A DNA stretch of 22,501 nt from a virus: positions 1 to 22,501 of the IMG/VR virus record IMGVR_UViG_3300021371_000107; one strand, given 5' to 3'. This document shows positions 1-18,666 of the stretch, one piece after another. A program made the translations under genes and the position numbers. Every line of letters starts with the position of its first letter. Position 1 is the first letter of the stretch. The notes below the pieces were generated by a model. The model saw nothing but the letters and a program-made list of their open reading frames with translations, was not told the DNA's origin and made no database searches.

Positions 1-990
1 TATTGTTTGTCTTTGAGCATATTGAGAATCTTCAAAAGCATTGTATCCTCTAGGCGTAAAGTATCCACGGCTTGTGAAAAACCTACGCATAAATCTATTT
101 AGTTTACTAGATTGTTGTAGTGCAACCTGTGAAGAACCTTCAGCAGTTTCTGTAAGCTGAATATCTGTTAATTGACTTTGCTGTTTAAACTGTGTAGTAA
201 CTTTAGCTTCTTCTAAAACTTCAACCATAACATCTGCTTGTTCTGCTGGCGTTAGTTCTCCTACAGATTTATTATATAGTTGCTTACTTTTTTGAGTTAC
301 ATACTTAACACTTTCAATTCCTGCTATACCCAAAGCCTTTAACATTTTAGGCGTGTGTATTACTACATCTATTGCACCACCTATAATACTTTCTTCTAAA
401 GCAACAACAGCTTTCTTTTTTAGTACGGTATCGTCTTCTTGACTACTAAGAAAATCTACAACTGGATTACTTTTAAGATCAGGAAGAATTTCAACAACTA
501 CATCTGTAAAATTTTGATCTTCTACATCACCTAAAGCAACTCCCGTAGCTGCTCCTGATAGTATGCCCTTACCTCGTTTTACTCCAGCTTCAGCTAATTC
601 TTTATATGCTTTAGTTCCAACTATTGCATACGGAAGAATACTAGCACCCATGCCTGTTACAGTGTCAACGTCTTTAACTTTTCCTTCTTCAGTTAATACA
701 GAACTGTATAATTTATCAGCAGTTTCCTCAAAACCTAATGATCGTAAAGGGTTAGCAACAATATTAACACTTTCTTTACGGGCTAAGTTTAAAAATTCAT
801 CGGGAACTACTTTTTTACCCGTAGTAGTTTCAGAAATAATATTAGCTATAGTAGCGGGTAAAAAAGCAATGTTCTCACCAGTGTCCATATAAACTCTAGC
901 AATATCAGCAGCTATGCTTCCTTGATCTTCGTTTTCAATAGTTTCTTCCTGACCGTCTAAAGAAACATCAGTTTTTATATCAAGTTCCAT
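1..990 (-). CDS. Large internal virion (ejection) protein, partial: C-terminus beyond the window
   Basis: An open frame runs from an ATG at 988-990 to the left edge without a stop, showing the first 330 residues. A GGAGAAAGT ribosome site stands just before the ATG, and the previous gene stops 12 bases upstream. The acidic N-terminus (residues 1-30) is followed by mixed helical sequence, then a Gly/Ala-rich hydrophobic stretch around residues 112-155 that could insert into a membrane, and helical segments at about 190-270. Near the edge is a basic aromatic patch, RFMRRFFTSRGYFTPRGY (about 299-316). Its place as the last and probably largest of five genes after the holin fits the large ejection protein of marine podoviruses, which in some phages carries a cell-wall hydrolase. 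No catalytic domain is visible here. The role is inferred from position and general likeness. Confidence 0.8.
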   Translation of the reverse strand, partial: MELDIKTDVSLDGQEETIENEDQGSIAADIARVYMDTGENIAFLPATIANIISETTTGKKVVPDEFLNLARKESVNIVANPLRSLGFEETADKLYSSVLTEEGKVKDVDTVTGMGASILPYAIVGTKAYKELAEAGVKRGKGILSGAATGVALGDVEDQNFTDVVVEILPDLKSNPVVDFLSSQEDDTVLKKKAVVALEESIIGGAIDVVIHTPKMLKALGIAGIESVKYVTQKSKQLYNKSVGELTPAEQADVMVEVLEEAKVTTQFKQQSQLTDIQLTETAEGSSQVALQQSSKLNRFMRRFFTSRGYFTPRGYNAFEDSQYAQRQTI

Positions 991-1002
991 ACTTTCTCCA
1001 GT

Positions 1003-2346
1003 TTAATCTAAAACTTTAATAGGATTGCCGTTTTCATCTACAAGAACATTCTTTAGTTCTCCGCCAATAGTAGATTGAATAATTCTTGATCCTTGAGTCA
1101 TTTGAGTAAATAAATCGCTAATTTCTTTAAGATTAGAAAGAGCCGTTAATTTTTCTTGCGGTGATCCTGTTGTTAGCTGACGCTGCAAAGAAATGCTATT
1201 TTTAGCAAGTGAAGATACTAAAGATGCAGTAAGTTGAGTTTTAGAACTATCTTGTAAATTTTCTTCTACTTGTGTAAAGTCTTGTAAAATATTTGCTACA
1301 GTAGAATACTCTGCCATAGTGCGTATATTGCCTAGTGTTATTTTTTGTTTATGTACAGCCTTAACAAATTCAGCATACGCAGGAGCAGTTAAAAGGCTTT
1401 GAGGCTTTTCTGCTAAGTTATAAGAAGTTTTAGCAGCTTTTAAAATTTTACTATTTACAGCATCAGGAGTACCTTCAAATAATTTAGATGCGGTAGGCTT
1501 TTGTTCTTGCTCTGGTAGTTTACCAAAACGATCTTTTACACTTGTTTGCTCTATAAGAAATGCTTCGTCATCTATAACTTGAATATTAAAAGATGTTACT
1601 GTTTGGAAGCGTTTTTCTTTAGCAGTTTTAGGAACAGTTAAATTGGCAAAATCATAAGCGTTTACAAGACTACCAGTTTCTTCAAAAGCTTTTGTTAAAG
1701 CAATAACTCTTTCTCTATTAGTGTCGTTTTGACTAATAGCTGCAACCGCTGCTTTCTCACGTTCAGCAGAACTTTGACCATCAAATAAATTAGCAAGTCC
1801 TGTAGTTATTAAATTGCCAACACTTGAGGGTCTTACATTTTTTATAATCCTAGCTTGTTCAGCCGTAACAGTATCTGCACTGCGTATTGTTTTAGAAGCA
1901 TTAACTAAATTATTTAAAGCGTCTACTCGCATCTGAGCTAATTTTTTAACTTCTGAGTTTACAAGATCATCGTATGCTTGTGTACCGTATTCATCTAAAT
2001 TAACTTTATTTTTAAACTCTGTTTCAAAAGAAGGTTTAATTTGATCAGTATAATATTGTAAAGCATTCCCGTTTGCTTGACTTTTAATGTTTGCTAGTTC
2101 TTGCTCTGCTTCTATCTTACCTTTAGAAGCATTTTTAAATAAAACATTAGAAGCTAAAATTTCTTCATTATCTAAAAAACTAGCAGTTCTATCAGCTAAC
2201 ATCTTGTTACCTACACCTACAGCAATAGCAGCCCCTAAACCTAAAAGCTCTTGCTTTCTTTCTTTTTTACGGTTGTCTCTAGCAATCTTATCATTTCTTG
2301 ATCTAATGTTTGCTAGTAAAGATTCACCTAATTCTTCAATCGCCAT
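1003..2346 (-). CDS. Putative internal virion protein, 447 residues
   Basis: The ATG at 2344-2346 has AAAGGA about 8 bases upstream and lies 12 bases after the stop of the 194-residue gene. The N-terminus is helical and strongly basic (residues 1-33, including RKKERKQ). A short hydrophobic Gly/Ala stretch follows (about 34-46, LLGLGAAIAVGVG), which could be a membrane-interacting or membrane-seeking segment. The rest is mainly polar, Ala/Lys/Gln/Glu-rich helix with no cysteine and no recognisable enzyme motif. It sits in the run of large polar proteins after the holin gene, where podoviruses place proteins carried in the capsid and ejected with the DNA. I recognise the general type but cannot match it to T7 gp14, gp15 or gp16. 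Its function is inferred from position. Confidence 0.82.
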   Translation of the reverse strand: MAIEELGESLLANIRSRNDKIARDNRKKERKQELLGLGAAIAVGVGNKMLADRTASFLDNEEILASNVLFKNASKGKIEAEQELANIKSQANGNALQYYTDQIKPSFETEFKNKVNLDEYGTQAYDDLVNSEVKKLAQMRVDALNNLVNASKTIRSADTVTAEQARIIKNVRPSSVGNLITTGLANLFDGQSSAEREKAAVAAISQNDTNRERVIALTKAFEETGSLVNAYDFANLTVPKTAKEKRFQTVTSFNIQVIDDEAFLIEQTSVKDRFGKLPEQEQKPTASKLFEGTPDAVNSKILKAAKTSYNLAEKPQSLLTAPAYAEFVKAVHKQKITLGNIRTMAEYSTVANILQDFTQVEENLQDSSKTQLTASLVSSLAKNSISLQRQLTTGSPQEKLTALSNLKEISDLFTQMTQGSRIIQSTIGGELKNVLVDENGNPIKVLD

Positions 2347-2358
2347 TGTTATATCCTT

Positions 2359-2943
2359 TTATTGAGCAGGAGCTAATAAGCTTGCTTGTTGTGGAGGTTG
2401 CTCCATAGGCTGTTGTGGAGTTTCTAAAGCATCTTCAGGTATCTCTTTTATTTGAGATAAGATTTCATTGCTTAAAACACCCGCTGGAACTTTAACAGGT
2501 TCAGAACCTTTTTCAAATTTTTGAAGTGCTAGTTCTTCAAACTTAGTACCCAAGGCTCTTTCTTCATCTTCTTCATCTTGTTCTTCGTCTAAGTATATAA
2601 CCGGATCAATATCTAAACGCTCTGCTAATGCTAATAACATATAAGCCACAGGCTCAATAAGCATTACCAGTAAGTCAGGATTCCATTTGCCTTCTGTAAA
2701 ACCTTGAAAAAGAATTACTTGCGCTATTTCCATAATAGGCGTTCCATCAGCAACTGCTTGCATTAAAGGAATATAAGATTCTTTTTCTATCATCTGTGCA
2801 AATAAATACTCTGAAGCTGCGTGTACGCTTGTGTACTCAGGAGCTTTTTCAAAAGGCGCAGGGTTTTCAGGATCATTTGTTAATGATTGGCCGGGGATTG
2901 GTCGGCCTCCTTTCTGTTGTACTTTTAGATATTCTTCATCCAT
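2359..2943 (-). CDS. Conserved acidic virion-associated protein, 194 residues
   Basis: The start ATG at 2941-2943 shares one base with the TAA stop of the 386-residue gene (TAATG), so translation is probably coupled; GAGAGGTG lies upstream. The N-terminus has a polar GGRPIPGQSLTNDPENP motif (residues 12-28), then a compact helical domain (about 35-115) with ESYIPLMQAVADG and GKWNPDLLVMLIEP. An acidic linker follows (about 119-129, DEEQDEEDEE), and the tail is rich in Pro and Gln (about 173-194). From memory, proteins with this N-terminal motif and the NPDLL..LIEP segment are common next to ejection proteins in marine podoviruses. It has no signal peptide. It may be a small capsid-internal protein or a factor for loading the ejection proteins; this is inference. 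Confidence 0.82.
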   Translation of the reverse strand: MDEEYLKVQQKGGRPIPGQSLTNDPENPAPFEKAPEYTSVHAASEYLFAQMIEKESYIPLMQAVADGTPIMEIAQVILFQGFTEGKWNPDLLVMLIEPVAYMLLALAERLDIDPVIYLDEEQDEEDEERALGTKFEELALQKFEKGSEPVKVPAGVLSNEILSQIKEIPEDALETPQQPMEQPPQQASLLAPAQ

Positions 2944-4103
2944 TATGCAACACCTCTCATTGATGCTTGATAGTTATTCCAAGCAGCAGCATTATAACCG
3001 TAAGGGCTTGTATTAATAAAATTAGTATTGTTATTTATATACTCAGCAACATTAACACCGTAAGGCGAATCTCCTGCTCCAATTGAAACTGATTGCGGAA
3101 GTTGAGCTACTGAAGTTGCGTATGTAGTATAATTAACATCAGGAATACCACCACCTGCTTTTTGTGCAGAGGTCATTAAAGCTGTGTCTATAAATTTAGA
3201 CGGTGCTTCTGCAATAGTCTCTCCAAGTTTTACTCTAGCCTCACCCGCCTTTTCTACTACAAAGTCACTAGCTTTGCTAAGTAAACTTTTTGGTTCAGTA
3301 GCTACATTAGTTACTCCATCAGCAACGGTTGACATTTGTGGTGCATTAGGGGCTGGTGGAATTTCAACACGCGACATATTTTCAACACCTGTTAAGTTCG
3401 GGCCTGTTGCTAAGTCTTTAGCCTGTGACATAGCATTCTCAGCAACAATGTCTGGTGTTTCAACGAGCTTGCCTGTAAATTCATTAGTTACTGAATCCAT
3501 TTCGGCTGATACGTTTGGTAGATCAGGAACTAAAGCATCTCGTTTAGCTTTTAAATCATCTAAATATTTAGTTACACTTGCATGTTCACCTGTAAGTGTA
3601 TCCATGCTGAACAGATCTCTACCGCTATCTAAAACTTTTGTAGCTTCTTCTCCTACAGTTTTAAAAATATCTCCAAAGTTTTTCTTTTGGCTTATATCAA
3701 TTCCTGCCCCGTCTACTCCCATACCAAGTTTAGAAGTAAGTGACTTTATAGGATCTGCTAATCCTAATTTATTAGCAGCAGTACCTACTACATCGCCAAT
3801 AACTTTTGTAACTCCTTTGGTAACAGTTTGGAAAACATTGCCTACTTTAGTACCTATGTTTAGTGCGGCATTTATAAAGTTTCCTGCCGCAGTAGCTACT
3901 GTGCCGCCAGTGCCTATTAAAAACCCAGCGGCCTTTCCAAGCATTGCTCCAACCCCCGGCAACAATAAGCCTAGTCCTATCTGTCCAATAATGCCTAGTT
4001 TACCCATGAACTTGCCAACAGACTTAAAAGCACTTTTAATACCTTTGCCTATTTTCTTTACTACTTTTTTAACGCCTTTAAAAAGTTTTTTAAAAAATCC
4101 CAT
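2943..4103 (-). CDS. Internal virion protein with cationic, membrane-active N-terminus
   Basis: The ATG at 4101-4103 is preceded by AAGGTGAT and lies 12 bases after the stop of the 890-residue gene. Residues 2-37 are an amphipathic array of Lys with Phe, Val and Ile (it opens GFFKKLFKGVKKVVKKIGKG) and carry no acidic residue. A Gly-rich hydrophobic segment follows at about 37-80 (GIIGQIGLGLLLPGVGAMLG). The remaining 300 residues are polar and low in complexity, ending in Asn/Tyr/Ala-rich sequence. This resembles membrane-lytic peptides and the small ejection proteins that line the channel through the cell envelope. The gene lies between two other candidate ejection proteins. I infer that it inserts into the host membrane during DNA entry. 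No enzyme motif is visible. Confidence 0.83.
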   Translation of the reverse strand: MGFFKKLFKGVKKVVKKIGKGIKSAFKSVGKFMGKLGIIGQIGLGLLLPGVGAMLGKAAGFLIGTGGTVATAAGNFINAALNIGTKVGNVFQTVTKGVTKVIGDVVGTAANKLGLADPIKSLTSKLGMGVDGAGIDISQKKNFGDIFKTVGEEATKVLDSGRDLFSMDTLTGEHASVTKYLDDLKAKRDALVPDLPNVSAEMDSVTNEFTGKLVETPDIVAENAMSQAKDLATGPNLTGVENMSRVEIPPAPNAPQMSTVADGVTNVATEPKSLLSKASDFVVEKAGEARVKLGETIAEAPSKFIDTALMTSAQKAGGGIPDVNYTTYATSVAQLPQSVSIGAGDSPYGVNVAEYINNNTNFINTSPYGYNAAAWNNYQASMRGVA

Positions 4104-4115
4104 ACCTATATCACC

Positions 4116-6788
4116 TTATGTAAATAATCTTTCTGCTAAAGTTACAAGAGTGCTGCTTGAAGTTGTATTTCCTTTTGTAGCTCCCGCTTCGTTTCCGATA
4201 GCTGTAGCATAAATTTGAGCCTTTCTATTTTCATTGTTTTCGTATGCTTGACGAACATAAGAAGCTTCATCTCTAAACTGTTGCCAAATTTGTGCTTGCT
4301 CTAAAGCTGTTAAGTTATATGCATTTTGAACATTCTGTTGATTAGCTGCATTAAGAGCAGCAGTTTCAGCAGTGTTTGCTTGTCTACGCCATGCTATATT
4401 AGATTGTTCAACTGCTTGAGCATTTTGAGCGTTCCAAGTATCTCGCTGTAACTCAACTTGTGCATTGTACTTATCAATGTCTGCTTCTAACTGAGCCGTT
4501 AAAGTAGCCGCTTGAAGCTCGTTTCCTGCTTCTATAGCCGCTTGCCTATTCTTTTCAGTCGTGTTGAACTGCTCCATAGCGTTTGCTTGAGTCGTGTTAA
4601 ACTGCGTCATTGCAGAAGATAAGTTAGCCATAAACTGATTAGTTTGATTTTCAGACGTAGCATTAAACTGTAACGCTGCATTAGCCGCTGCTTGATTAGA
4701 AAGAATACGTTGCTGTTCTTGCTGCTGATCTAAAATAGTAGCTTGTTGTTCATTATTTAAGTTAGCCATATCCATGCTTAAAAAGTTTTGAGCATTTGTA
4801 ATAGCTAGTTTAGTTGCTTGATCTGCGGTAGCCATATCCATAGCAGCTAAAGCAGTTGCATTTTGCATTGCTGCTTGCTGTTCAGCATTAAAGTCTGCCA
4901 TAGTCATTGACTGCATAAATTTACTATTAGCTAGTTGAACTTGTTGTTCAGCATTAAACTTAGTAAGATCTACATTAGCAACCATAGCTGCATTTTGAAC
5001 TGCACGTTGCTGATCTACATTTAACTGAGCAAGCCCCATAGACTCTGCAATTTTAGCTTGAGTTAAATTAGTTTGAAGTGTAGCATTAAGATTAGCTAAT
5101 TCAACTTGTTGTTCAGCATTTAAATTATCAGCACTTGCTTGATTAAGTGCAGAAAGATTAGCAAGCCTTGTTTGCTGATCATTACTTAAATTTGCTAAAT
5201 CCATCTGTTGTTTAAATCCAGCATTCTTAGCTAAAAAGTCTGCGGCAGTTTGCATCTCAACTAAACGCGCTTGTTGCTCTGCCGACATATTTTCTGATTC
5301 AGTAGCATTTAAGTAAGACAGATTAGCCAATTCCATCTGTTGCTCGTTACCTAAATTTTGCGCGGTTATAGCCTGTTGATTTTGTGCATTCAATACAGCA
5401 GTTTGCTGACGATTTTGTAAGTTCTGCATAGCAGTTTGTTGCTGTTGCTGTGCAGTAGTCATAACAGCATCTTGTCTAAACTGGCTTTGCATTGTAGCCA
5501 TTTGCTGTGCCATCTGCGCTGTCTGAGATGATGCTGTTTGCTGATTAGCTAAGTTAGCCATTTTCAACTGCATGTCAGAAGTTGCTTGTGCTAAATTAGC
5601 TTGTTGCTCATTGCTTAAATTTTGAGCAGAACGAGTTTGTAAAGCCTGTGCATTATTTTGTGCAAGAGGTAATGCAGTTTGAATTATTGCATTAAAAAGA
5701 GCATCGCGTCCTACCGTTGAAGCTGATAGTCCTCTTCGCGCTAACATTGTATTAACTTGTGCTACTGCGGGTCTTGCCCACGCAGGAGTAACACCTTCAT
5801 CCATTCCCGCTAACAAGCTTTCCATTTGAGAAGATACTAAAGCTTCAGTAGGTAGAGCAGCAATAGCAGCTTTAACTTCGACAGGTTGAGTATCTATAGC
5901 AGCTTCAACACTTGCAGGATCTTCTACAATTGCGGCTGTAATAGCTGTTGGTAAATTACCTACTTGTGCAATCATTTCAGATGCCGCGCCTTTAGCCGCT
6001 TCACCTGTTACTGTTCTGCGTTTAGCAGCTTCAAAGCCTACATTTTCTATAATTTGTGCAGCTTCACCTTCTGAAATAGTATCATCAGTAATTGCAGTAC
6101 GCTGTGAAGCTTCAGCTTCTTTTGTAGGAGCAACATCAGTAACTTGACCTGTTACTTTGTCTACATACGCGCCTTCAGAAATATCAAACTGTGGCCCTGT
6201 TGTTAAAGAAGCTTGTTCAGCCGCAGTATCTCTGGTAGCTGCTGTAGCTCTTTCAGTCATTGTAGGCCCAGCAGCCTCAGCAATCCTAGATACCTGACCT
6301 TGTGCTGCTTGTGTTGGAGCAATGTCCTGTGCTTGTACTGCATCAAATGTAGCAGCCTCGACAGGCTTTACAGCTTCTGCAAATGTAACGTCTCCTTGAG
6401 CAGCGGGAGCCATTGTAGGAGCTTGAACACCATCAGTAGTTACAGCGGTTCCTGCATCTAGCTGTTGAATTTGAGAAGCTGTTGTAAAACCTTGTTTAGC
6501 CATAGATGCACGAGGATCTATAGCTGATTCAACACCTCTTTTTGCATCAAACTGCCTTACAAAATCTTCGGGATCTTCATCAGGACGTTTTTGAACAACT
6601 TCTGGTGGCTTGCTTGCGCTGCTTGCACTGCCTCCTTTAGGCATATTATGTGCTTGACTGTTTGGATTGTGTGGAGTCCAGCCCATACGCCCTGAATAGT
6701 TATGTCCCCCACCATGATAAGCTGCTCTTTTAGCTTTTAAAGATTTTAATACTTTTTTAGTATTTCTTTTATTTCTTTTTTTGCTCAT
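4116..6788 (-). CDS. Internal virion protein with 11-residue (hendecad) repeats, 890 residues
   Basis: The ATG at 6786-6788 is 3 bases after the holin stop, with GGGAAGA upstream. Order of regions: a very basic N-terminus (1-24, MSKKRNKRNTKKVLKSLKAK) suited to binding DNA; a Gly/Ser/Pro linker (25-70); an Ala-rich region (100-320); a compact segment at about 317-378 containing GVTPAWARPAV and RRGLSASTVGRDALF; then residues 390-840, which fall into about 41 consecutive units of 11 residues. The consensus is Asn at position 1, Leu/Phe/Met at 2, Gln at 6-7 and Leu/Met at 10, as in NLNAEQQVELA. The last 50 residues are polar. Such a repeat predicts a very long coiled coil with an almost straight core. 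Its place with the other post-holin genes suggests a capsid core or ejection protein. An alternative is a fibrous tail or core component. Confidence 0.85.
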   Translation of the reverse strand: MSKKRNKRNTKKVLKSLKAKRAAYHGGGHNYSGRMGWTPHNPNSQAHNMPKGGSASSASKPPEVVQKRPDEDPEDFVRQFDAKRGVESAIDPRASMAKQGFTTASQIQQLDAGTAVTTDGVQAPTMAPAAQGDVTFAEAVKPVEAATFDAVQAQDIAPTQAAQGQVSRIAEAAGPTMTERATAATRDTAAEQASLTTGPQFDISEGAYVDKVTGQVTDVAPTKEAEASQRTAITDDTISEGEAAQIIENVGFEAAKRRTVTGEAAKGAASEMIAQVGNLPTAITAAIVEDPASVEAAIDTQPVEVKAAIAALPTEALVSSQMESLLAGMDEGVTPAWARPAVAQVNTMLARRGLSASTVGRDALFNAIIQTALPLAQNNAQALQTRSAQNLSNEQQANLAQATSDMQLKMANLANQQTASSQTAQMAQQMATMQSQFRQDAVMTTAQQQQQTAMQNLQNRQQTAVLNAQNQQAITAQNLGNEQQMELANLSYLNATESENMSAEQQARLVEMQTAADFLAKNAGFKQQMDLANLSNDQQTRLANLSALNQASADNLNAEQQVELANLNATLQTNLTQAKIAESMGLAQLNVDQQRAVQNAAMVANVDLTKFNAEQQVQLANSKFMQSMTMADFNAEQQAAMQNATALAAMDMATADQATKLAITNAQNFLSMDMANLNNEQQATILDQQQEQQRILSNQAAANAALQFNATSENQTNQFMANLSSAMTQFNTTQANAMEQFNTTEKNRQAAIEAGNELQAATLTAQLEADIDKYNAQVELQRDTWNAQNAQAVEQSNIAWRRQANTAETAALNAANQQNVQNAYNLTALEQAQIWQQFRDEASYVRQAYENNENRKAQIYATAIGNEAGATKGNTTSSSTLVTLAERLFT
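4269..5621 (-). repeat. 33-base / 11-residue repeat array inside the 890-residue gene
   Basis: When the protein is written in rows of 11 from residue 390, clear copies of the unit start at residues 390, 478, 500, 533, 555, 588, 610, 632 and 676. All these spacings are multiples of 11, and degenerate units fill the gaps and continue to about residue 840. In the DNA this appears as recurring ttgctgttc-type words on the plus strand. The copies differ a lot at the base level, so this is an old protein-level repeat, not a recent tandem duplication. Confidence 0.85.
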
Positions 6789-8962: not shown

Positions 8963-11900
8963 TTATTTCTCCATCTTTTTAACTTTAGCTTCTAAACTGC
9001 TTACTTTATCTGTAAGCTCTTTAATTGCTTCAATAAGTAAAGGAGTTATTTTTTCATACATAACTGTTTTGTATCCTTTACCTACTACAGAATCAGCAAT
9101 TATTTCAGGAAGCACTGCTTCAATTTCTTGTGCAGATACACCTACTTCAACTCCTTTAGACTCTACGCCTAAAGAAAGCGCAGTAGTGTTTGGAGTATAG
9201 TAGTAACCGTTTAGCTTAGATACTTTATCTAAAGCACTAGGTATAGTACCCATTAAATTTTTAAGTCTTTCATCAGAATAGTAAGCTGTAATATTACCAG
9301 TAGCTACGATAGACCCGACAACGTGTAAAGCTTGAGTAGGGGCTGTAGTTCCAATACCTACTCGTCCGTTAGACGCACACCTCATGGTTTCCCCAGAACT
9401 GCCTCGTCTAAATGTTATGTTTTGAGATTGACCACCAGAAGAAGCATAAGCGTCTAAAGATGTAACAGTGTTATATACTCCAATTCCAAAAGTTGAGTCA
9501 GAAGTCGCAGTATTTCTAACAGTAAATGTATTTCCTGTAGTAGAGTTTTTTCTTACTACCAAAGCTGGTGTCGATGTAGCTCCACTTTCAATGGTACATC
9601 TTCCACCTGTTGTTGACGTAGTGTTTATGCCTACGCGACCAGTGGAGTCGATACGCATTCGTTCTGTAATTCCACCAGCGGAAGGCGCAGTGTAAAACGC
9701 AAGATAAGAATCTAAAGCGGTTGACTGCCTAACGCTCTGTATTCTTGATACAGAGTCTGTGCCGTCATAGAAGTTGATAACACCGTGAATCTGGTCGTTG
9801 GCATTAGTGCCGTAGTTGCCTAGTTGTAGTGTAGAATAATCAGTACTGGCTGCGCCTTTGAGTGCAAGCGTTGTCCTGCCGCTACCAAAGTCCTGCATAA
9901 TGGCTGTAGTCCCTATGCCCACGTTTCCAGAGGAGTCGATTAACATACGGTTAGAATTTGCTACAGCATCCCAAAAGTAGAGGTTTTGTCCTGAGTTTGC
10001 TATTTGAAATTCACCAGTATCAGTGTCTTCTAAAGACAATAGAGGCTGTGTTCCTGAAATCTGTAGAACTTGGTTAGAACTTCCCCAATCTGTAGCACTA
10101 GGCGAACTAGTACCTATGCCCACGTTGCCAGACTGGTCAATATTAAAAACGTCAGACGAAGTAGCGTCATTTCTTATTGTAAAGTTAGCATTACTGTCCC
10201 ATCGAATACGAGTAGCGTTACCATCAGCTGACTCCATAAACAGATTTGCACCACCACCAGTCGATGTTAATTTAGCCGAACCAGTTGCACTTGATACGTG
10301 TAAATCGTTGCTAGGAGATGTTGTTCCTACACCCACGCGATTGTTTGTTGAGTCAACGTAGAGGGTGTCGGTGTCTACTGTCAATCCTGCAAAGGTAGGG
10401 CTGTCTGTAGTGGCTACGCCCTGATTCAATGCCTTAACAGATGCCTCGCTAGTCAACTCGCTGTCCATCACTGCGCCAGCGGCTGTGACGTTAGCTGTGT
10501 CTGTTACATCTGCACTAGCTTCAATACCGTCAAGCTTAGTACCATCAGCAGCTACATCACGGCCATCAACTGTGCCTCCTGCTACTATATTACCAGACAC
10601 ATCTAAAACACCGTTTACATCAACTGTCGTAGCAGCTATCTGTACTTCTGTATCCGCAACAATATCAAGTTGTCCGTCTGCACTAGAATTAATGTATAAT
10701 CCTGTATCTCTAAATTGTATTTTAGTATCTGTAGTTACAGTGTTTCCAAAACCTAAAGTTTCTTGTAAAGTTTCTTCTCCTCCAGAAGCAGTGCTTGCAA
10801 TTGTTCCATCAGCAGCGATAGTAATGTTAGAACCCGCTGTTAAAGCAGCTACAACATTAGTTGTATCTGTAACATCTGCCGAAGCTTCGATAGCATTTAG
10901 CTTAGAGTGGTCAGCATCAGTAAACACATTAGAATCTGTTGCAGCTTCAACCGCTGCACGAATTTCTGCGTCTGTTTGGTCAGCAGTTGCGTTTGCTTCA
11001 ATGCCGTCTAGTTTAGTATGGTCAGCATCAGTAAATGCGTTAGTGTCTGCATTGCTTTCGTAAGCAGTTTTAATTTCAGCGGCTGTCTGGTCTGCTGTAG
11101 CTCCTGATTCAATTGCATTAAGTTTGCTATGATCAGCGTCTGTAAAAACATTTGAATCTGTAGCACTTTCAACTAGCGTTCTAATTTCTGCTGCTGTTTG
11201 ATCTGCGGTAGCAGAAGCTTCTATTCCGTCTAGTTTAGTACCATCAGCAGCTACGTCACGCCCGTCAATAGTACCATCAGTAGTTAAGTTACCTGAAATT
11301 ATAGGAGTAGTAAGAGTTTTATTAGTAAGTGTTTGAGTGTCTGTAAGAGTAGCTACAGTGCTATCAATTGCTACAGTAAGAGTATTAGTAGCTCCAGAGG
11401 TGTCAATACCTGTACCACCCGCTACTGTTAAAGTTTCTGAGTCTAAATCAATATTTAAAGCACCACCTGAATCTCCTTGAAAATCCAAGTCTTGTGCTGT
11501 TACTTGAGCATCTACATAAGTTTTTACAGCTTTAGCAGAAGGAAGTGTGTCGTCAGAGCTTGACACACTAGAAATATCAGTATCTAATACACCTGACTTT
11601 AAATTATCAACTTCGAGGTTTTGAATAGTGTTATTATCAGCATCAATAGTTTTATTAGTAAGTGTTTGTGTTCCAGTAAGTGTTGTAACTGTACCGTCAA
11701 TAGAAAGAGTTACACCGTTACCAGACGCAGTAGAAGTAATTCCTGTTCCTCCTAAAATGCTTAGAGTTTCAGAATCTAAATCAATTGCAATGACAGTTGT
11801 ACCATCAGTAAGATCAAGATCTTGGGCAGTAACTTGAGCATCTACATAAGCTTTAATAGATTGTTGCGTAGCTAAAGCAGTATCAGAATCAGAAGACATG

Positions 11901-12334
11901 TTATCTTCATTAAGAATAGTAGTTACAGTTGATCCTGAAGTAAGGACTAAAGCATCAATATTAGCAGTTCCGTTTAAAAATAAATCTTTAAACTGAACAC
12001 TAGAGCTACCTAAATCGACATCATTGTCAGTTACAGGAACTACTGCACCGTCTTCAACTCTAACTTGTTCTGTTGCAGTTCCACTTACTTCAATAAAAAA
12101 ACCAACACGGTTATTAGCTGTATCTACAACAATTTTATTTAGAAAGTCTTGGTCGCCTATTGTATGAATATTGCCACCCTGACCCGCAGAACCATCATGT
12201 TGATGTCCTGTTGTTCCAGAAGTTGTGTATGAAAATGCGCTTACAATTTGATTGTATTCATTATTAAACAGACCCGCAGTAATTGTATCTCCGTCTGTTA
12301 ATGTGCTTTGTCTTGTATAGCTAGTACCTGCCAT
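8963..12334 (-). CDS. Tail fibre with C-terminal S74 intramolecular chaperone, 1123 residues
   Basis: The ATG at 12332-12334 is preceded by AGGAG placed over the last codons and stop of the nozzle gene. Residues 1-110 are probably the virion-binding head (GHQHDGSAG at 43-51). Residues 159-341 hold two copies of a block with YVDAQVTAQDLD, IDLDSETL and TQTLTNKT. Residues 354-498 carry 37-residue repeats (FTDADHSKLNAIE, ATADQTAAEI), and DGRDVAADGTKLDGIEAS occurs at 357-374 and again at 590-607. From 664 to 1005 there are five beta-turn units of the VGIGTTSP type. Residues 1018-1123 are the chaperone-of-endosialidase domain: SDERLK at 1020-1025 with the expected autocleavage Ser1020 and Asp1021, then VSAQEIEAVLPE, YEKITPLLIEAIKEL and a terminal coiled coil. 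In this family the chaperone trimerises the fibre and then cuts itself off. The middle third is GC-richer than the rest. Confidence 0.93.
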   Translation of the reverse strand: MAGTSYTRQSTLTDGDTITAGLFNNEYNQIVSAFSYTTSGTTGHQHDGSAGQGGNIHTIGDQDFLNKIVVDTANNRVGFFIEVSGTATEQVRVEDGAVVPVTDNDVDLGSSSVQFKDLFLNGTANIDALVLTSGSTVTTILNEDNMSSDSDTALATQQSIKAYVDAQVTAQDLDLTDGTTVIAIDLDSETLSILGGTGITSTASGNGVTLSIDGTVTTLTGTQTLTNKTIDADNNTIQNLEVDNLKSGVLDTDISSVSSSDDTLPSAKAVKTYVDAQVTAQDLDFQGDSGGALNIDLDSETLTVAGGTGIDTSGATNTLTVAIDSTVATLTDTQTLTNKTLTTPIISGNLTTDGTIDGRDVAADGTKLDGIEASATADQTAAEIRTLVESATDSNVFTDADHSKLNAIESGATADQTAAEIKTAYESNADTNAFTDADHTKLDGIEANATADQTDAEIRAAVEAATDSNVFTDADHSKLNAIEASADVTDTTNVVAALTAGSNITIAADGTIASTASGGEETLQETLGFGNTVTTDTKIQFRDTGLYINSSADGQLDIVADTEVQIAATTVDVNGVLDVSGNIVAGGTVDGRDVAADGTKLDGIEASADVTDTANVTAAGAVMDSELTSEASVKALNQGVATTDSPTFAGLTVDTDTLYVDSTNNRVGVGTTSPSNDLHVSSATGSAKLTSTGGGANLFMESADGNATRIRWDSNANFTIRNDATSSDVFNIDQSGNVGIGTSSPSATDWGSSNQVLQISGTQPLLSLEDTDTGEFQIANSGQNLYFWDAVANSNRMLIDSSGNVGIGTTAIMQDFGSGRTTLALKGAASTDYSTLQLGNYGTNANDQIHGVINFYDGTDSVSRIQSVRQSTALDSYLAFYTAPSAGGITERMRIDSTGRVGINTTSTTGGRCTIESGATSTPALVVRKNSTTGNTFTVRNTATSDSTFGIGVYNTVTSLDAYASSGGQSQNITFRRGSSGETMRCASNGRVGIGTTAPTQALHVVGSIVATGNITAYYSDERLKNLMGTIPSALDKVSKLNGYYYTPNTTALSLGVESKGVEVGVSAQEIEAVLPEIIADSVVGKGYKTVMYEKITPLLIEAIKELTDKVSSLEAKVKKMEK
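10841..11272 (-). repeat. 37-residue (111-base) repeats in the tail fibre gene
   Basis: Four consecutive units start near residues 354, 389, 426 and 463 of the fibre protein, each built around (A/T)DADH(S/T)KL(N/D)(A/G)IE or its DGTKLDGIE variant followed by ATADQT.AEI. The second, third and fourth are exactly 37 residues apart. Bases differ between copies, mostly at third codon positions. Confidence 0.85.
11312..11860 (-). repeat. Duplicated 72-residue block in the tail fibre gene
   Basis: Residues 159-230 and 269-341 align over their whole length. They share YVDAQVTAQDLD, IDLDSETL, GGTGI, TV.TLT.TQTLTNKT and differ by one inserted residue. The offset is 110 residues (about 330 bases). This looks like an internal duplication of a shaft module. 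Confidence 0.8.
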
Positions 12335-16935: not shown

Positions 16936-18666
16936 TTATCGTGGGGTTACACTTGGCATGCGGTTAGCAGAAATCATTTGTCGCTTAATTTCTTCTTCCG
17001 TAAGTTCATCCTCAGTCATCCTATCGGTCATTTTACCATTTCCCATAGGATTATAAGCAATACCGCCAAATGCTTTTTTCATTAAACCACCGTCATAAGC
17101 ACGTTCAGCATCATCCATCATAACTTGAAGCTTATCTGCGCCTAACTGATCAGTGGCTTTTTTGGTGAAAACAAATTCACCATCCGATAGCCTTGCGGGT
17201 ATCGAATCTGATACTCCAGTTCCGGGGCCATTGACTTCCCCCTCACCAGAAAATTCTCCTGCAACATCCATAACTTGATCAAAGATGATGCTTAAACGCT
17301 CGTCTTGTTCTAGAACGTCCATTAAGTATTCTTGATCGTCTTCTTCTAACGATTCGTTTAGTATAAATTGTAAGTAGTTATCTTCCATTTCAGCGTCAGG
17401 AAGCTGTGACTTTTCAGCCGCTTCTTTTTCTTCTTCTGGAATATTGTCATAAGTATCTTGTAGTTCTGGCGGCAGCATCATTGAACCACCTTCAGCCATC
17501 ATTGTTAAAGGCATAGTCGCAGGAGTTAAAGCAGCTTCCATTTCATTGATACTAGGTATTTCTGCTTTTTGTATTGTTTTTATTTTTTCTTTAAGAAATT
17601 TAACGAGTCCACCAAAAGCTTTAGCTTCTCTTCCTTTAGCTACATCTGTAGTATAACTTTTACCTTCAAACATAAAAGTATTTTCTCCTGCATTGTGAGC
17701 TTCGCTAAATGCACTTTCAAACTTTTCACGTTTGCTTTCAGTTAAACTTTCATATACATCTTTAACTGCTTCTGGGCCTTCTAGTAATAATGTTGTTACA
17801 CCTGCTGTACCCGCAGTATTTTTAGCCATATCACTACGATACGTTTTTTGCTTACGCACTAAAGGCGTAGTAGTTTCTTGTGATTCTGTAGCATCTTTTT
17901 TAAGGCTTGTTAAAATAGAATCTATGTCAGTTTTACCGCCACCACCAGTTGCATAGTTTTCAAGAGAACGTAAAGTTTTTTCTTCGTTTTTATTTTCTGT
18001 AGTTAATTTTTTAATTAAATTAGGATACATTTTTTTTGTTTCAACTACAGCAGTATCTACTTGTTTGCGTGTTGGTTTCTTTCCCTTCTTAACATTTTTG
18101 CGCATCATATCAGCAACCATTTGTGCAATACGCCCACCGCGAGAATATCCTTCACGCTCTGGTGGTACTAACATAGAGCCTCCTTCGTGTTTCGCTACTC
18201 TAGGGCCAATAGCTTCTAAACGATCTAGTGCTGATTGATAAAGATCTGCATCTGCTTCACTTACATTTTCTCTGAACTCTTTAAGACCTTTAGCGTCTAA
18301 TGTATTTAAATATTGAGAAACTTCTGAAGCACCTGTAAATAACTCTAAACTGTTTGCTGCTTCTTTAGGTGTCATAGAAGTCATCATTCCTTCTTGACTT
18401 TCTACTATTTCTGCACCGTAATCATCACCCATCATTTTTGCACGTTCTTTTTCAGGAAGGGCTTCTACAAGATCAAAGTATTCATCATCATCAAGCTCGT
18501 CTAAATAAGAAGGATTTTTAATCATTTCTTCATCTAAAGCATCACGGACTCGTTCAGCATCTACTTTCTGCTGTTTAACTTTGCTGGCTTTAACGCCAGC
18601 CTCTGCAACTTCTTTATCCAGAAGTTTGCCTAATAGACTTACAACAACAGGCTTAGGTACTTTCAT
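16936..18666 (-). CDS. Acidic virion-associated protein with GPGTGxSDSIPARLSDGEF motif, 576 residues
   Basis: The ATG at 18664-18666 follows the 76-residue gene by 5 bases, with GAGGA about 10 bases upstream. The N-terminal 110 residues are charged helix (DDDEYFDLVEALPEKE). EGGSMLVPPE at 161-170 recurs as EGGSMMLPPE at 392-401. Between them lies a mainly basic, helical stretch of about 220 residues (KKGKKPTRKQ at 193-202). After the second copy comes very acidic helix (405-460), then GPGTGVSDSIPARLSDGEFV at 480-499 and a closing helix (LGADKLQVMMDDAERAY). From memory, the last motif occurs in structural proteins of many phages, often just after the portal. Position between portal and scaffold suggests a head-associated protein. 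No enzymatic residues can be named. Confidence 0.84.
   Translation of the reverse strand: MKVPKPVVVSLLGKLLDKEVAEAGVKASKVKQQKVDAERVRDALDEEMIKNPSYLDELDDDEYFDLVEALPEKERAKMMGDDYGAEIVESQEGMMTSMTPKEAANSLELFTGASEVSQYLNTLDAKGLKEFRENVSEADADLYQSALDRLEAIGPRVAKHEGGSMLVPPEREGYSRGGRIAQMVADMMRKNVKKGKKPTRKQVDTAVVETKKMYPNLIKKLTTENKNEEKTLRSLENYATGGGGKTDIDSILTSLKKDATESQETTTPLVRKQKTYRSDMAKNTAGTAGVTTLLLEGPEAVKDVYESLTESKREKFESAFSEAHNAGENTFMFEGKSYTTDVAKGREAKAFGGLVKFLKEKIKTIQKAEIPSINEMEAALTPATMPLTMMAEGGSMMLPPELQDTYDNIPEEEKEAAEKSQLPDAEMEDNYLQFILNESLEEDDQEYLMDVLEQDERLSIIFDQVMDVAGEFSGEGEVNGPGTGVSDSIPARLSDGEFVFTKKATDQLGADKLQVMMDDAERAYDGGLMKKAFGGIAYNPMGNGKMTDRMTEDELTEEEIKRQMISANRMPSVTPR

Follow-up and report, generated by a model that had tools for sequence, protein, structure and literature searches.

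An 11-residue repeat helix held in register among relatives of HMO-2011-type phage proteins and its possible part in genome delivery

The 22.5-kb virus record analysed here over its whole length (the window) encodes an 890-aa protein in which residues 390-840, at 5621-4269, can be written as a gapless series of 11-residue units (hendecads). This raises the question of what such an array does and what keeps it in phase. An earlier sequence-only reading placed the array at these positions, correctly, and labelled the protein an ejection protein. The main genes of the window all lie on the minus strand. Their order is terminase, SU10-like portal, scaffold-like gene, P22-type capsid protein, two connector/tail genes and an S74-type fibre, and after the fibre come the 890-aa protein, proteins of 386, 194 and 447 aa and a large protein of which the window includes only the start. 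The features of the hendecad gene and of the genes downstream of it are as follows.

4116..6788, minus strand: gene of the 890-aa hendecad protein
6123..6788, minus strand: residues 1-222, N-terminal region of low complexity, basic at its start and free to vary in length among relatives
5733..6005, minus strand: residues 262-352, predicted compact domain of short helices, pLDDT about 90
5442..5714, minus strand: residues 359-449, predicted single unbroken helix that runs into the array and takes in its first hendecads, mostly pLDDT 78-93
4698..5621, minus strand: array zone 1, residues 390-697, 28 hendecads with two hydrophobic seams, copy number variable in relatives
4236..4697, minus strand: array zone 2, residues 698-851, 14 hendecads, position 11 often aromatic, present in all relatives
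4185..4307, minus strand: residues 828-868, conserved C-terminal anchor WQ..RD...EN, used in the register test
2943..4103, minus strand: downstream 386-aa gene, with a Lys-rich cationic amphipathic start followed by a Gly-rich hydrophobic stretch
2359..2943, minus strand: 194-aa gene, downstream of the hendecad gene in 13 of 13 relatives with a match
1003..2346, minus strand: 447-aa gene, in the place of P22 gp20 or T7 gp15 by position only
1..990, minus strand: start of the large protein, cut by the window edge, in the place of P22 or T7 gp16 by position only

The hendecad protein has no Pfam match above the cut-off and no PHROG match, its 41 aligned members likewise have no PHROG match, and a sequence profile search of the PDB returned chance matches only. 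Its direct homologs are HMO-2011 gp25, HTVC103P gp59, CHOED_013 and phiM6_25, in which the register and the faces of the helix are the same. In isolated relatives the gene is annotated as a hypothetical protein or is unannotated, and no description of the repeat was found in the searchable literature on the homologs. The C-terminal extension of the HMO-2011 protein has no homology to other phages at 1e-5.

BLOSUM autocorrelation of residues 390-840 gives z = 8.0, 11.8, 6.4, 9.2 and 8.5 at lags of 11, 22, 33, 44 and 55, the 11-residue signal that had been expected of an internal repeat search. About 60 other structural proteins, from the window, T7, P22, SU10 and HTVC010P, include none that comes near this signal; the tape measure protein of TP901-1, the positive control, was also detected as an 11-residue repeat. 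In a leave-out profile all blocks from 390 to about 697 fall in the phase given above, and residues 698-840 keep the 11-residue signal (z 5.0) with a different consensus. The first 28 units share the consensus N-L/A-x-x-E-Q-Q-x-x-L/M-A. In the last 14, which stay in register, position 11 is often aromatic and position 10 often Gln. The core N-L-x-x-E-Q-Q, which had been placed at nine sites, is exact at 390, 478, 555 and 676, but the other five are variants such as NMSAEQQ, QLNVDQQ and KFNAEQQ. Asn, thought to be constant at position 1, is found there in about 60% of units but not in the remainder, and Leu or Met holds position 10 in 18 of the 28 units before 698, but this position is mostly Gln thereafter. 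Within residues 478-697 the stronger unit is a 22-residue pair made of two alternating unit types, and some homologues show higher-order blocks of 55 or 110 residues.

Eleven residues correspond to three helical turns, therefore the faces of a helix stay unrotated if residues are gained or lost only in whole units. The register was measured in relatives as the distance from a non-repeat anchor before the array (335-388) to the conserved anchor after it; the latter is itself in the repeat register, and a slipped alignment could mask unit number but not phase. Wider searches found at least 534 relatives in IMG/VR and ten in genome contigs. Anchor-to-anchor differences are all multiples of 11 in the first 38 distinct homologs, and the wider set, of 114 distinct sequences, gave 0 mod 11 without exception. 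One of these (L147) was left out, as its value of -37 units stems from a truncated contig, and the final sample consists of 113 distinct metagenomic homologs and 15 isolated phages. All 128 are 0 mod 11 at identities down to 22%, with at least 21 distinct array lengths and distances of -25 to +40 units relative to the window. The isolated phages differ from the window by -110 to -275 residues, each value a multiple of 11, at 22-41% identity over the alignment. As a control, the lengths from start to anchor and from anchor to stop were counted, and these populate all 11 classes mod 11. Gap placement is arbitrary in divergent pairs and only close pairs are cited for indels; each shows a single clean in-phase indel, of 66 aa at 91% identity, 110 aa at 88% and 11 aa at 83%. 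The gapless register proposed for residues 390-840 is upheld by these lengths, which vary strictly in steps of 11 as had been anticipated for the homologues. A family of 128 homologs with at least 21 lengths and zero out-of-phase changes is an unusually clean natural experiment.

Unequal exchange can grow repeats and yields whole units for free. The steps of 11 might then be mutational only, arising by exchange of similar 33-bp units with no selection on the register. Blocks of 110 residues account for the changes of +10, +20, +30 and +40 units, and one 33-bp insert is 58% like its neighbour. However, the window gene shows no trace of 33-bp tandem repeats in its DNA, and the 198-bp block that L027 lacks shares only 36% identity with the neighbouring sequence; the register is thus not accounted for by recent exchange. 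No out-of-phase indel is present in the 128 homologs, even at 22% identity, while the flanks vary freely. We therefore consider a purely mutational origin very unlikely. It is likely, though not proven, that the register is held by selection on the protein rather than by neutral repeat mutation, and the register data are strong evidence for a very long helix that is kept in phase by lateral contacts.

In the longest relatives (L129, L131, L134, L136, L141 and L144) the array is extended by 20, 30 or 40 units, always as 110-residue blocks of exactly 10 units, and reaches up to about 900 residues. These blocks have the appearance of old duplications. In L042 and L048 the hendecad gene is broken into two reading frames, through a frameshift or an assembly error.

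There are no prolines in any of the 24 arrays checked, which range from 186 to 901 residues. AlphaFold2 predicts helix over most of residues 361-869 of the full protein as a monomer, at low confidence, with pLDDT about 50 in most of the array. For residues 240-450, with 89 sequences, the mean pLDDT is 85.6 and the model consists of a small helical domain followed by one helix over 359-449. The prediction is thus helical and not compact globular, in line with the sequence-only reading, and the long hendecad helix and its register are well supported. A fold search with the small domain found only family members, with PDB rows at E above 1 and no confident PDB relative. The best PDB Z of 5.7 is mostly lone-helix coverage, which is common with helical models. 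An extended array would be about 69 nm long in the window protein, in agreement with an earlier estimate of 65-70 nm, and up to about 135 nm in relatives.

The faces of the array were described as phases on an 11/3 helix, with power expressed relative to shuffled sequences (the null). Gln is centred at 197 deg with 21.6 times the null power and charged residues at 35 deg with 13.8 times, so the two faces are 162 deg apart. Charged residues occupy positions 1, 5 and 9, Gln, Ser and Ala occupy the opposite positions 3, 7 and 11, and two hydrophobic seams run along 2-6-10 and 4-8. Hydrophobic power is 0.3 times null at 11/3 and 14.7 times null at 11/5. The hydrophobic periodicity that had been expected is therefore present as peaks at the harmonics 11/4 and 11/5 residues, but not at 11/3. 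Taken by itself, zone 2 has a weak single seam (p 0.034). All 24 relatives tested have their Gln phase at 179-222 deg, the phase being significant in 22, and every one of the 24 shows a significant two-seam signal; the charged phase is not significant in several short members, for example phiM6, CRP-3 and N3_13. The hendecad coiled coil suggested earlier holds as a long 11-residue helix, but the two seams and the lack of an 11/3 hydrophobic peak rule out the classic one-seam form. Lipid binding, which the sequence-only reading mentioned for known hendecads, is rejected, since the single hydrophobic face of synuclein- or apolipoprotein-like hendecads is absent. A helix with two opposite seams would be expected to pack on both sides and thus to assemble into sheets, large bundles or tubes, and not into separate coils of two or three strands.

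Long 11-residue arrays are also found in tape measure proteins, where their copy number varies among relatives (PMC3271669) and where deletions behave according to helical periodicity (PMC5099701). The hendecad protein could accordingly be a tape-measure-like pilot rod, a solid bundle without a lumen that is carried in the virion, ejected before the DNA and helps to breach the envelope, a part that tape measure proteins play in long-tailed phages. The frequent aromatic residues at position 11 of zone 2 are in keeping with this, as are the viral fold matches ranked after family members, which include many tail and tape measure proteins, although these are weak and none is significant. The TP901-1 tape measure protein shares with the family its long 11-mer arrays of varying copy number. 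It differs in having one strong hydrophobic face with a polar face opposite (57.9 times null at 11/3, against 0.3 and two seams in the window array) and in having Gln and charge only 20 deg apart, against 162 deg. It also carries W/F markers and some 18-residue units and belongs to a long-tailed phage, whereas the hendecad family is strictly 11-residue and short-tailed. The HMO-2011-type and MQM1 relatives are short-tailed, the window phage being known from its genes alone, and such phages have no tail length to measure. We regard a pilot rod of this kind as unlikely.

A closer likeness in the arrangement of faces is found in protein H of phiX174. H forms a decameric alpha-helical tube from residues 151-271 that is 170 A long, with Asn, Gln or Arg at 18 of 23 inward positions, and changing the inward residues affects DNA passage (PMC7354561). 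A Gln/Asn-rich conduit, which the sequence-only reading thought unusual, thus has a precedent. H resembles the hendecad protein in its hendecad helices, about 18-19% Gln, no Pro and no strong single hydrophobic face. The angle between Gln and charge is 163 deg in H and 162 deg in the window, a comparison in which only 33 residues of H are used, and per-position permutation tests, which have low power with 11 positions only, are mostly not significant. H differs in that it belongs to an ssDNA microvirus and has three hendecads followed by heptads, over 121 residues against 186-901 in the hendecad arrays. At E up to 1, no H chain was among the PDB sequences matched in the profile search.

The neighbourhood of the hendecad gene was compared among its relatives. 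These are HMO-2011-type phages of Pelagibacter, Puniceispirillum, Roseobacter, Rhizobium and Sinorhizobium, together with CHOED, MQM1 and Slicky01, phages of Vibrio, Aeromonas and Pseudoalteromonas. HMO-2011-type phages are considered to be among the most abundant marine viruses (PMC9038755), and no account of the passage of their DNA across the envelope was found. Gene order is similar in the relatives, with the hendecad gene after the tail genes and ahead of the 194-aa gene and the large protein. In the window the corresponding short-tailed module is found, comprising the hendecad homolog, the conserved 194-aa gene and the large terminal gene.

The slot between the hendecad and 194-aa genes is variable. 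It is annotated as a lysine-acyltransferase in HTVC115P and a cell wall hydrolase in CRP-603 (L060, L070). The 386-aa protein that fills it in the window shows a 7-residue signal (z 6.1) and, judged from its sequence, looks membrane-active.

The position after the tail genes, in a block that ends in a large protein, resembles that of T7 gp14/15/16, P22 gp7/20/16 and SU10 gp21/22, although none of the T7, P22 and SU10 ejection proteins has an 11-residue signal. When the two flanking domains were compared by hhalign with 38 single sequences from T7, P22, SU10, HTVC010P and KPP25, no probability exceeded 2%, and the searches found no solved ejection or pilot protein that matches the hendecad protein in sequence or fold. 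The large protein of Slicky01 resembles a KPP25 'structural protein', and the hendecad homolog of CRP-3 has a match to phrog_6121, 'virion structural protein'. The gene position and these two links suggest a virion protein in genome delivery. The label of ejection protein is therefore plausible from gene order, but it has no family model, fold or homology to known ejection proteins behind it, and an ejection role is likely but unproven.

At its C-terminal end the CRP-3 relative (L067:1589-3448) has a hydrophobic stretch rich in Gly and also a Peptidase_S74 chaperone domain that scores above the Pfam cut-off. The S74 intramolecular chaperone accompanies trimers in known cases. The array might then be a long stalk of three parallel helices in an external fibre or appendage on the tail or capsid, and the place of the gene after the tail-fibre genes and the whole-unit length variation, as in stalks, would agree with this. 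Two opposite hydrophobic seams, however, exceed what a parallel trimer needs. The Peptidase_S74 domain is found only in the CRP-3 relative; the window protein lacks it and stops 22 residues past the C-terminal anchor, metagenomic homologs with both anchors have at most 66 residues past the anchor, too few for S74, and most members are without an obvious C-terminal receptor-binding domain. A trimeric fibre therefore appears rather unlikely.

The head of phage MQM1 is about 70 nm (PMC10410586) and the array of its hendecad protein is 33 nm, which such a head could hold. The protein might thus be an internal scaffold or core spool, a lateral helix bundle in the head that organises the DNA or the portal and is not ejected, and long helices encoded in the structural module would fit this. 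Extended arrays of 69 to 135 nm, on the other hand, would fit badly or not at all in such a head, and there is a scaffold-like gene elsewhere, between portal and capsid. We give the core spool only a slim chance. The same lengths bear on storage: 69 nm is close to the diameter of a head of about 70 nm and 135 nm exceeds it, so an internal protein would need to be folded for storage.

From the computed register, helix, face geometry and gene neighbourhood we infer a protein that would be present in the virion, form oligomers and act in ejection, possibly as a tube or conduit. We tentatively favour, as quite possible if short of probable, a genome-delivery protein of the virion whose copies assemble side by side through both seams, perhaps into an amide-lined tube. 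The hendecad protein would be stored folded or loosely packed in the virion and released at infection, when it would build a tube or a lined path through the envelope. Both seams would pack on neighbouring helices to give a side-by-side bundle or tube, with the uncharged Gln/Ser/Ala face toward the DNA and the charged face outside, as in phiX174 protein H. By simple geometry (an estimated ~10 A between helices) a bore of dsDNA size would take about 11-12 helices, a figure that comes from the geometry and not from the data. As a hypothesis the tube is specific, and phiX174 provides its precedent. A bolder form of it, which we think somewhat doubtful, is that marine short-tailed dsDNA phages are equipped with an amide-lined alpha-helical DNA tube of their own, which would be convergent with that of phiX174 H, would measure up to ~135 nm and would evolve in length only by quanta of three helical turns. 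The 'tail' of such phages would be stored as protein in or on the virion and built at infection.

Two further proteins of the window have repeats or motifs of their own. The 576-aa gene between portal and capsid (16936-18666, minus strand) encodes a short C-terminal motif (residues ~471-515) that also occurs in many tape measure PHROGs, and this is an odd location for such a motif. The 1123-aa S74-type tail fibre (8963-12334, minus strand) contains a 37-residue internal repeat similar to ADQTAAEIRTLVESATDSNVFTDADHSKLNAIESGAT, with z 5.7 at lag 37.
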